Assembly: GCA_949471785.1 (NCBI GenBank)
Contig: CASWRE010000002.1
Location: forward strand, 88,821-152,820
DNA from: an uncultured Lachnospiraceae bacterium
GTDB lineage: Bacteria; Bacillota; Clostridia; Lachnospirales; Lachnospiraceae
Direction of reading: 5' to 3'
Length of the DNA: 64,000 nt
A model generated the notes under the pieces. That model saw nothing but the letters and a program-made list of their open reading frames with translations, did no database searches and had not been told where the DNA came from. The translations under genes were made by a program, and so were the position numbers. Shown here in pieces: positions 58,562-62,771 of this stretch. Positions within the stretch are counted from its first letter, which is position 1; each line of letters begins with the position of its first letter.

Positions 58562-58738
58562 TCATACGAGTATATCTATGTTCTGACCCAGATCCGGGGA
58601 TACAGAAGCAGTCAGCATCTCTGCCATCTCTGCTCCGGCAGTCTCCATGGTGTCCATCACCTTGGACGCGACGGCCACACTTACCTCCATATGCAGTCTG
58701 TCCATAGACATAGCCATCGATAATGCGGGAATATCCAT
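58562..58738 (-). CDS. YjfB-family putative motility protein
   Basis: MDIPALSMAMSMDRLHMEVSVAVASKVMDTMETAGAEMAEML...PDLGQNIDILV; GAGGTGGATGATTCT-ATG start. Confidence 0.82.
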   Translation of the reverse strand: MDIPALSMAMSMDRLHMEVSVAVASKVMDTMETAGAEMAEMLTASVSPDLGQNIDILV

Positions 58739-58807
58739 AGAATCATCCACCTCTTTCTGTACTTTAATTAAACTAATCATAGCAAGAACCGTGAAGAAAA
58801 GCAAGAT

Positions 58808-58834
58808 TAAGATTTCAGAATATTATGCCGATAG
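58808..58834 (+). promoter_or_regulatory. Sigma-D/sigma-28-like promoter
   Basis: TAAG-N15-GCCGATAG compared with consensus TAAA-N15-GCCGATAT. Confidence 0.65.
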
Positions 58835-58891
58835 TAAATATAAGCACTGTTATTTTATGACAAATCAAATACATGATTCGGGGAGGAAATT

Positions 58892-59554
58892 ATGCGTATC
58901 AACATTGGACAGACAAGAGATTTATTCTGTACCCAGGCAATCAACAACAGTCTGCGGCGAAACATTTCCCGGGAGGAGCAAAAAGCAGGCGTTCGAACAG
59001 ATCAGACCATCCTGTCGCCCCAGGGAAAATCCTCCGGCCTGCTGGCATCCCTGATGAACCAGAAAGAGCTGATTCAGATGAATAAGGAGTCACTGATTAA
59101 AAGAGAGCTGGGTGAGGACGGCATAAAAACCGGGAATTTCAGCAAGCAGCTTGAGGAATACGAAAAGCAGCTTGAGGAACTGGACGAACAGATTGCCAGA
59201 GAGATGGCTAAGCAGGCCCAGGGTGAAAAGGAAGAAGGTACGATCTATAAAGATCCCCGGGATGCGGATTCCGAAAAAACGCCGGAGGAGCACATCATGG
59301 AGTTGTCCACAGAAGATTCTGCCGCCATGGAAAAAGCCCAGACTCTGGAAGACGCCCGGGAAACGCGGGAGCGGGAAAAAAGCACGGCGAAGACCCAGGC
59401 AGGGGAAAGCCAATATGGCTCTCCTTCCCAATGGGGTTCTCCTTCGGCCGAGCGTCGGCTGAAGGAAGTCGCAGACAAGGAAAGGTTGGCCTCCCAGATA
59501 GCTCCCATCCTTGAGGATGACAAAGAAAAGTTCATGAAAGGAAGGATATTTTAA
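58892..59554 (+). CDS. Uncharacterised charged coiled-coil-like protein, first of coupled pair
   Basis: 220 aa, RBS GGGGAGGAAATT-ATG; Glu/Lys-rich helical middle. Confidence 0.8.
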   Translation: MRINIGQTRDLFCTQAINNSLRRNISREEQKAGVRTDQTILSPQGKSSGLLASLMNQKELIQMNKESLIKRELGEDGIKTGNFSKQLEEYEKQLEELDEQIAREMAKQAQGEKEEGTIYKDPRDADSEKTPEEHIMELSTEDSAAMEKAQTLEDARETREREKSTAKTQAGESQYGSPSQWGSPSAERRLKEVADKERLASQIAPILEDDKEKFMKGRIF

Positions 59555-60489
59555 TGAGAATTTATGGTGATCAAAAAGCTTACAGTCAGTATTCGTTTCT
59601 TATGAATCCCGCAAACAGTTTATCCAGGCGAGAGCCCACGAAGCTGGCGGAACTGGCGGACCGGCTGATGGGGAATTCCAGGCAGGATCAGTTCAGCCTC
59701 TCCGCGGAAGGCGCAAGCGCCATCCGGGACATGCTGACAAAAATGCAGGAGGACGGCGACGCACCAGTGAGCAGTCTGCCATCTGCGGATCAGCTGATGC
59801 TGGCCCATATAAACGATCATCTGGGAGAAGATCCCTACGCCAGGATGGAAGCATTATATGAGCAAAAACAATCAGAAAACGCGAATCAATTGGATATAGA
59901 CGGACACACGGAGAGCATGGGCTACGCATATGACAAAATGTATGACGAGATTGTCCAGGGATATAAAGACGGAACCAGAGAAGTATGGGTGCGGGATTAC
60001 AGCACCGGGGAGGATTTTGACGGGCTGGAATTTCAGATTGGCGACGAGACAGTACGCTACCGCAAATTGACAAAAGAGGAGGAATTAAAAAATCTGGAGG
60101 ACGCTTATGATAAACTGGCCGATACCGTGGCTCACAAGGTTACGGATTTATACATTAAGGCCACTTACAGTGAAGATGAAATCATGGCGGAGTTCAACGA
60201 GATAAAAGAAGCCGCTTCTCTCCGGGTGGATGAAATCAAGGATAAGCTGGAGGAAATGAAAAGGAGGATTCAGGAGGAAAAGGCGAAAAAAGAATCCGAG
60301 GAAGCCAAAAAGATTAAGGACCCGGGCGAGAGGATTGCCGAAGGCGCCGCCGCACATATGCAGGACACCATATCCAGAGGACAGTTAGTGGAAAATACCA
60401 ACCGCTATACCCAGATGAATGCGATACTGAATGATTTTTACGCTATGGGCAGTATGGTAAACGAAGCGGGTCCCTCAAAAACAGAATAA
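59554..60489 (+). CDS. Uncharacterised coiled-coil-like protein, second of coupled pair
   Basis: 311 aa, TAATG stop/start overlap with the upstream gene; helical C-terminal half. Confidence 0.8.
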   Translation: MRIYGDQKAYSQYSFLMNPANSLSRREPTKLAELADRLMGNSRQDQFSLSAEGASAIRDMLTKMQEDGDAPVSSLPSADQLMLAHINDHLGEDPYARMEALYEQKQSENANQLDIDGHTESMGYAYDKMYDEIVQGYKDGTREVWVRDYSTGEDFDGLEFQIGDETVRYRKLTKEEELKNLEDAYDKLADTVAHKVTDLYIKATYSEDEIMAEFNEIKEAASLRVDEIKDKLEEMKRRIQEEKAKKESEEAKKIKDPGERIAEGAAAHMQDTISRGQLVENTNRYTQMNAILNDFYAMGSMVNEAGPSKTE

Positions 60490-60598: not shown

Positions 60599-61828
60599 TC
60601 AGGTCAAAATACCTTCCTGTCGCAAAAATTCCAGAATTCTGTCCTGAATCCCCGTATCCGCGAATTTGCTGGTAATACTGAAATGAAAAATATCATAACA
60701 GGAACAGGCGCAGATCTGAATCTTATCTGTACTGGTGATAACTCCGAAACGGTCAATATAAGGTTCATAGATTTCCGGCATGATCACCGCGCCCAGATTG
60801 GACAGCACAGCCGTCACGTTCCTGCTGCCCGCCCATATGCCTATTTTCAGAAAGAAGTTTTTCAGACCAAGGGGCATATACTTTAGAGCCGGATTCTTTT
60901 CAATATTGACCAGGCGGTTCATCCGGAGCGCTACCTGCTCCCGGTCCAGCTCTTCTTTAAAACGCAGCTTCACATGGGCGAGCACTTCTTCAAAAGTAGT
61001 ATCTTCACGGAAACGATATTCAATCTCCATCCAGCCAAAAAAATTGCCCATGGATTCGGAACGGTAATAGTTACGCAGATTGACGGGAATCATGATCACG
61101 ACAGGTCTCTTTTTCTGTTTTTCGGTCATGTCGTCCGCGATGGCCCAGAGCAGTACGGAAGTCATATATACTGTGATGGATACCCCCCTATCCCGCGCTT
61201 TTTCCAGAATTTTTCTGACGGATAAAGTGCATTCTGTGATTCCCATATCACTCTGCCGGACGCGTTTTCCCCTGATCTGATAGGCCAGACCACTTTTGCG
61301 CACCTGTTTGGGCCAGTTTTTCGGGGAATAATTCCGGCTGAAGCTGTCCTCTTCCTGAGCCGCCTCTGATACGGGCTCAGCTGAAGAGGATGCCGTCAGG
61401 GAATATTTCTTATCCAGATAGGCAGATACGATTTCTGAGAGAAATCGTATCGCGCCGGTTCCATCCGTCAGGGCATGGAACACTTCGAAATTGATCCGAT
61501 TTCCGTCGTAGCTCATCTCATACAGCAAAGTCTCCTGATCTTTCCGATAAAGGGGACTGCAAGGCGTCTTCCGATCCCTTCGTATAAAAGGTTTTATGTC
61601 CCTCTTTTCAAAATAAAACCAGAAATTTCCTCGTTTCAGAACACTCTGGAACATAGGATAGTGCCGGCGTACGTTTTCAAGCGCATTTTGCAGCAGCAAA
61701 GGATCTACAGGCTCTTTCAGTTCACAGTATACTCGAAAGACCCTGCTGTCTTTTTTTCCCGCCGCCACGGGAAAAGCCAGCGCAATATTGTCAAGTTTTC
61801 TTCTCTTCTTTGATTTCCCTGTCTTCAC
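60599..61828 (-). CDS. Condensation-domain-like / alcohol acyltransferase-like protein
   Basis: HALTDGTGAIRFL (HxxxDG). GTG start at 61828 with GAGGAAGG upstream, inside the 3' end of the hydrolase gene. Confidence 0.75.
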   Translation of the reverse strand: MKTGKSKKRRKLDNIALAFPVAAGKKDSRVFRVYCELKEPVDPLLLQNALENVRRHYPMFQSVLKRGNFWFYFEKRDIKPFIRRDRKTPCSPLYRKDQETLLYEMSYDGNRINFEVFHALTDGTGAIRFLSEIVSAYLDKKYSLTASSSAEPVSEAAQEEDSFSRNYSPKNWPKQVRKSGLAYQIRGKRVRQSDMGITECTLSVRKILEKARDRGVSITVYMTSVLLWAIADDMTEKQKKRPVVIMIPVNLRNYYRSESMGNFFGWMEIEYRFREDTTFEEVLAHVKLRFKEELDREQVALRMNRLVNIEKNPALKYMPLGLKNFFLKIGIWAGSRNVTAVLSNLGAVIMPEIYEPYIDRFGVITSTDKIQICACSCYDIFHFSITSKFADTGIQDRILEFLRQEGILT

Positions 61829-62771
61829 CGTCTGTTCCTTCCTCAAGAAAAGCATGAATTCTTTCCAGGCTGTCTAATACATGGATATGTTTGAATCCCA
61901 GAGCAAAAAAGCCGTGAAAAGCATTGGGAATTCGGCAGGCTTCCACTTCGTTTCCTGCGTCATGGAGCCGTCTGGCAAATTCCTCCCCTTCATCCCGGAG
62001 AGGGTCGTACTCCGCCGTCAGGATCAACGTACGGGGTAAATGATCCAGGCGGTCTGCCAGCAGCGGGGCAAAATAGGGATTCTGCCGATCCTCCGGCCCG
62101 TTCTGATACAGATTCAGATAGGATTCCATGCGGGATGCCGTCAGCAGATAATTTTTTCCGTTTTTTCTCACTGACTCAAACGGCGTATGCTCTGTGTAAT
62201 CATTCCAGAGAGCCGGATACACCAGAATCATCTGCTTTATGGAAAAGTCCCCCCGATCCCGGGCCATCAGGGCCATGGCAGCCGCCATATTGCCTCCCGC
62301 ACTGTCGCCGATCAACGTAATGTCCTCGGGTCGAATATGAGGAATCAGATGACCGGCATACAGTTCTCTGGCCGCGGCGTAACCGTCCATCAGTGGAATG
62401 GGAAAATGATGCTCCGGCGCGCGGCGGTATTCTACAGAGAGTACCAGCTGTCCCGTGCTCTGAGCCAATTGGGCGCAGATACGCTCATAAGTCTCTATAC
62501 TCTCCGTGGCCCAGCCTCCGCCGTGCAGGAAGAGAAGCACCTTTCTGCCATAACGGGAGATGTCTTTCTCTCTCATTTTCTTTCTGGAGGGAAAATAAAT
62601 GCGGATCGGAATCTCATATCCGTCATTGCTGATATGTACATCCACTTTTTCCATAAATATCCGGGTTATATCCAGTTTCTTTAATTCTGCGATTCGGCGA
62701 TCCCGCTCCACATCCACGCCCGGTTCGGATAACGCCTTCAATATCGTTTGCACCGCTTTGTTAAGAGCCAT
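61791..62771 (-). CDS. Alpha/beta hydrolase (HSL/esterase family)
   Basis: LFLHGGGWATES oxyanion motif, LIGDSAGGNMAAA nucleophile elbow. Confidence 0.93.
   Translation of the reverse strand: MALNKAVQTILKALSEPGVDVERDRRIAELKKLDITRIFMEKVDVHISNDGYEIPIRIYFPSRKKMREKDISRYGRKVLLFLHGGGWATESIETYERICAQLAQSTGQLVLSVEYRRAPEHHFPIPLMDGYAAARELYAGHLIPHIRPEDITLIGDSAGGNMAAAMALMARDRGDFSIKQMILVYPALWNDYTEHTPFESVRKNGKNYLLTASRMESYLNLYQNGPEDRQNPYFAPLLADRLDHLPRTLILTAEYDPLRDEGEEFARRLHDAGNEVEACRIPNAFHGFFALGFKHIHVLDSLERIHAFLEEGTDGEDREIKEEKKT

Follow-up and report, generated by a model that had tools for sequence, protein, structure and literature searches.

A candidate SigD-dependent, late-flagellar gene pair with FlgM-like N-terminal segments in the Lachnospiraceae

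What is the function of a compact pair of genes that lies behind a SigD (sigma-28)-like promoter and beside a yjfB-like gene in an uncultured member of the Lachnospiraceae? The pair is located in a 64,000-nucleotide stretch of DNA (referred to here as the window), and an initial annotation, made from the letters of the window alone, had proposed that it may form an accessory motility, flagellar assembly or late-regulatory module, encoded next to a YjfB-family gene. The two plus-strand ORFs, designated P1 (positions 58892-59554, 220 amino acids) and P2 (59554-60489, 311 amino acids), are arranged as that annotation described, overlapping by one base (the A) at a TAATG sequence, and both have good ribosome-binding sites (GGGGAGG and AAGGAAGG). 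The SigD-like site, TAAG-N15-GCCGATAG, was located on the same strand at 58808-58834, with 57 nt between its end and the P1 ATG, and equivalent sites are seen upstream of orthologues. Downstream of P2 (60514-60558, plus strand) is a perfect inverted repeat forming a terminator-like hairpin (fold energy -29.8 kcal/mol, z -6.15) that is predicted to mark the end of the transcript and is common to a convergent gene. The latter (60599-61855, minus strand) encodes a protein with weak likeness to PapA/condensation-type acyltransferases (PF16911, E 7e-7, just under the cut-off).

The yjfB-like gene (58565-58738, minus strand) encodes a 58 amino acid protein matching PF14070 (E 1e-18), has its ATG at 58738 and is divergent to the pair, as had been reported; position 58562, at which the annotated stretch begins, corresponds to the yjfB stop and is outside the P1-P2 pair. 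In other bacteria, YjfB has been reported to share a sub-module with sigma-28 (PMC11607428). This neighbourhood was seen only in the genome from which the window was taken: YjfB is absent beside every other P1/P2 locus fetched (with flanks of a few kb only), and no SigD site of good quality precedes the yjfB gene of the window. The idea that YjfB is part of the P1-P2 system was rejected for these reasons.

A second question is whether the promoter match is meaningful. The sigma-28 consensus published for this bacterial group combines TAAA with MCGATAa (PMC3720852), and the match upstream of P1 might be fortuitous, with P1 and P2 having nothing to do with SigD and being ordinary housekeeping or accessory genes. 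In keeping with this, a strict form of the pattern (TAAR-N16-CCGATA) is not enriched in the genome, where 16 matches, mostly inside genes, compare with 20 for a reversed-pattern control; the strict pattern was rejected as stand-alone proof of SigD control on this account. The sites are nevertheless kept upstream of divergent orthologues: 14 distinct P2-orthologue sites all retain CGAT and the leading TA but have a variable spacer, and the N15 spacing, whose conservation the initial annotation had made a test of its proposal, is retained in orthologues. When sites were scored with fixed literature weights that had not been trained on these data (threshold at least 15, within 150 nt upstream), 25 of 49 operon-head P1/P2-family genes passed, compared with 23 of the 202 controls drawn from the same loci (p 8e-9, an optimistic value, as the sequences are partly close relatives rather than independent). 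A site as good as that of P1 lies within 150 nt upstream of 4 of the 202 controls. The threshold is passed by 23 of 24 flgM genes, included as a positive control, and by 15 of 19 P2 orthologues whose products start MKxYGD/N. Around half of the P1/P2-family genes have no recognisable site in the 150 nt interval; many sit inside operons. Within the genome of the window, SigD-like sites precede flgM (TTAT-N15-GCCGATAC), a flagellin gene (TTAA-N15-TTCGATAA) and a second flagellin gene (TAAT-N15-AACGATAG). Because it is conserved in relatives, the P1-P2 site is counted as more than chance, and a coincidental match is also difficult to reconcile with the strong co-occurrence with FlhA described below, leaving this explanation very unlikely. 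The sequence comparisons thus support SigD control of P1-P2.

A site very like that of P1 (TAAG-N15-GACGATAG, 52 nt upstream) precedes a second SigD-type pair elsewhere in the same genome (contig C16, L174:6913-8980), encoding an uncharacterised 304 amino acid protein and a DUF6033-like protein of 361 amino acids, beside csrA, fliW, flgL and flgK.

If P1 and P2 are connected with motility, their distribution should be informative. The assembly to which the window belongs (3.03 Mb, 84.5% complete) carries flhA, flagellin genes and flgM, together with a complete fla/che operon that ends near the gene for FliA/SigD (TIGR02479, E 3e-66); flgL, flgK, fliW and csrA were also identified by sequence. 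Against a background of 210 FlhA-positive genomes among 396 sampled Lachnospiraceae, the co-occurrence that the initial annotation had suggested examining was found for both proteins: 53 of the 56 genomes that match the P1 profile are FlhA-positive (Fisher 4e-13), as are 21 of the 22 that match the P2 profile (Fisher 1e-5), both values being optimistic for the same reason as above. The P1 matches in three non-flagellate genomes (G026, G090 and G267) are weak and confined to the coiled coil, and were discounted. The P2-positive genome G162 has neither FlhA nor flagellin; the P2 copy there, carried by a short contig, is almost identical to those of other genera, so that contamination or recent transfer is possible. 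A P2 match in G135 was rejected, as it falls on the coiled-coil part of a protein resembling SMC. The P1 and P2 families are therefore confined almost entirely to FlhA-positive genomes, with named carriers that include Sporofaciens musculi, Dorea sp. 5-2, a Hespellia MAG and many mouse-gut Lachnospiraceae MAGs.

The P1 protein comprises an N-terminal segment, discussed below, followed by a coiled coil and C-terminal helices. Comparison of a P1 profile with Lachnospiraceae FlxA proteins (assigned to PF14282 by Pfam) gave an hhalign probability of 98.2% (E 4.8e-14 over 172 columns), and P1 shares with this family the order of a coiled coil followed by an E-G-x-x-x-V-L-x-x-E-I-x-L region. P1 differs from FlxA proteins in that it has no match to the PF14282 model in a Pfam search (two of nine close relatives do, at E 0.007) and in that its N-terminus carries a FlgM-like motif. 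On the strength of the profile comparison, P1 is a remote, divergent FlxA-like protein. The structure model of P1 is poor (pLDDT 58), with the first 45 residues mostly of low confidence. In a sister species (L125:1-176), the P1 tail includes a short repeat, GSPAEAGSKY, akin to a YGSPSQWGSP stretch of P1, from which the C-terminal region is taken to be evolving rapidly.

The FlxA kinship bears on a further explanation, namely that P1-P2 is regulated by SigD and yet acts outside the flagellum, as a lifestyle factor of swimming cells. The flxA gene of E. coli is dependent on FliA (sigma-28), which parallels the SigD-type site of P1, and is not known to have a role in the flagellum (PMC4183435); the family nearest to P1 is thus itself under sigma-28 control, where a match to a known non-motility family would have pointed elsewhere. 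The spread of the two families is also patchy when set against that of FlhA (P2 in 22, P1 in 56 and FlhA in 210 of the 396 genomes). Their near-absence from non-flagellate genomes and the FlgM-like N-terminal segment both sit poorly with a role away from the flagellum, and we regard this explanation as unlikely.

P2 consists of a FlgM-like N-terminal segment and a confidently modelled helical core that includes the motif Y..MYDEIVQGYKDGTREVWV...YRKLTKEEEL. The core is conserved in the family as Y-x-x-[LM]-Y-D-E-I-V-x-G-Y-x-[DN]-G-T-R-E...R-K-L-T-x-E-E-E-L, and in the model approximately residues 75-250 are confident (pLDDT ~90) whilst the first 50 are of low confidence. The profile and fold searches that had been suggested as a route to an identity for P2 did not provide one: there was no match above cut-off in Pfam, NCBIfam or a PDB sequence search, and Foldseek found no match to the model in the PDB at E 0.001. 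Neither P1 nor P2 has a curated family above cut-off in Pfam or NCBIfam, and matches to NEMO, DUF2201_N, deoB, MARTX and others in these databases, all far below the cut-offs, were dismissed as artefacts of coiled coil or low complexity. P2 is an unnamed family without a known fold, and so the description of the pair as undescribed stands for P2 but has to be qualified for P1.

Arrays of uncharacterised proteins that are found in many Lachnospiraceae (L054-L078, L104-L124) include FlxA-like, DUF6033 (PF19498) and DUF3879 (PF12995) proteins, FliD_C-like fragments and relatives of P2, and the proteins in these arrays begin with similar short N-terminal segments. The DUF6033 and DUF3879 proteins resemble the pair in adjoining P2 relatives and in having SigD-like sites near several of their genes, but match neither P1 nor P2 in sequence; their own function is likewise undescribed, no paper in the literature searched naming them. 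Genera g9 and g95 share nearly identical cassette segments in which a P2 relative is found together with DUF3879 and DUF6033-like genes (L026/L003, L054, L055 and L027), the P2 relative also being nearly identical in g160, and one genome (G392) has two copies ~45 kb apart, which suggests recent transfer or duplication.

P1 and P2 are coupled in several ways. The sister species UBA11957 has the end of P1 immediately in front of P2, with an ATGA overlap, whilst at another locus (L126) the gene order is P2-P1. At eight loci (L145, L146 and L148-L153), the N-terminus of P1 is fused to the core of P2; in L146, P1 itself is followed after 11 bp by such a fusion. From these fusions the N-terminal segment can be read as a movable module, which suggests that it is able to sit on either a P1 or a P2 body. 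In P1, this module (residues 1-48, encoded by 58892-59035, plus strand) is predicted to be mostly disordered, reads M-R-I ... D-Q-T-I-L-S-P-Q-G-K and is interchangeable with that of P2 in the natural fusions. Direct comparison of the P1 and P2 N-termini gave an hhalign probability of 95%, a figure that is inflated by the inclusion in the P2 alignment of a fusion with the P1 N-terminus.

The N-terminal module has a counterpart in FlgM, which retains SigD up to completion of the hook and is thereafter exported as a late secretion substrate (PMC13344023). The FlgM proteins of the Lachnospiraceae have the same layout as the P1 and P2 N-termini, the likeness extending to the M-[KR]-I start, the flexible linker, the motif that follows it and the SigD-type promoter. 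A start of the form M-[KR]-[ILMV] is present in 32 of 75 P1/P2 relatives and in 20 of 462 controls, and the D-x-V-x-I-S-x-x-G motif, which was chosen after the family had been seen, in 48 and 12 respectively. A profile of 24 FlgM N-termini matched 19 of 645 ORFs at E <1, 17 of them being among the 76 P1/P2-family ORFs (p 4e-15), with matches that are individually weak in score and have an aligned core of ~15 residues. The shared motif occupies positions 1-11 of PF04316, the FlgM (anti-sigma) domain of Pfam, and, lying within the start of that domain, could serve either sigma binding or export.

Were it to serve sigma binding, P1 and/or P2 could be cytoplasmic regulators in which SigD (or the FlhA docking platform) is bound by the motif, as may also happen in FlgM, so that the SigD/FlgM checkpoint is tuned by competition, with SigD-driven expression providing feedback. 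The motif is short, however, and P1 and P2 differ from FlgM in having large helical bodies of their own, and the remainder of the FlgM sigma-binding domain is absent from them (there is no PF04316 match to either protein up to E 10). A regulatory role of this kind seems improbable to us.

We favour instead, with a probability of roughly 0.5, the reading that P1-P2 is a SigD-dependent, lineage-specific late-flagellar pair whose FlgM-like N-terminal module is probably for flagellar type III export. Export of FlgM after hook completion would free SigD-RNA polymerase, which would then read the promoter at 58808-58834 and so express both P1 and P2 alongside flagellin. The N-terminal module proposed for each protein (M-[KR]-I, 25-45 flexible residues, then D-x-V-x-I-S-x-x-G-[KR]) would most likely route the two to the flagellar type III export gate, delivery to the gate used by FlgM being the simplest reading of a FlgM-like module. 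Coiled-coil P1 and helical P2 might then serve as accessory factors, either exiting via the growing flagellum or acting at it. Sequence comparison supports the two-gene unit, the SigD-type promoter, the restriction to flagellate Lachnospiraceae, the coupling of P1 and P2, the shared N-terminal module and the kinship of P1 with FlxA; from these we infer export, the site of action and any effect on flagella. Of the accessory motility, assembly or late-regulatory module first envisaged, SigD control and the flagellar link are supported by site conservation and FlhA co-occurrence, whilst yjfB is a neighbour rather than a conserved partner.

More tentatively, P1 and P2 may belong to a modular class of Lachnospiraceae late-flagellar proteins that has so far gone unrecognised, in which various bodies (FlxA-like coiled coils, the P2 core and perhaps others) carry a common FlgM-like export tag and the flagellum serves as a secretion route for variable non-structural proteins; we consider this possible but doubtful. 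In the gut Lachnospiraceae, flagella are an important structure that the host senses, and the late class of flagellar genes is chiefly known for its flagellins. If the reading favoured here is true, a SigD-controlled family of non-structural proteins with a FlgM-like tag would make this class larger, and lineage-specific, and would raise the question of whether P1 and P2 exit by way of the flagellum or instead influence the SigD/FlgM checkpoint.
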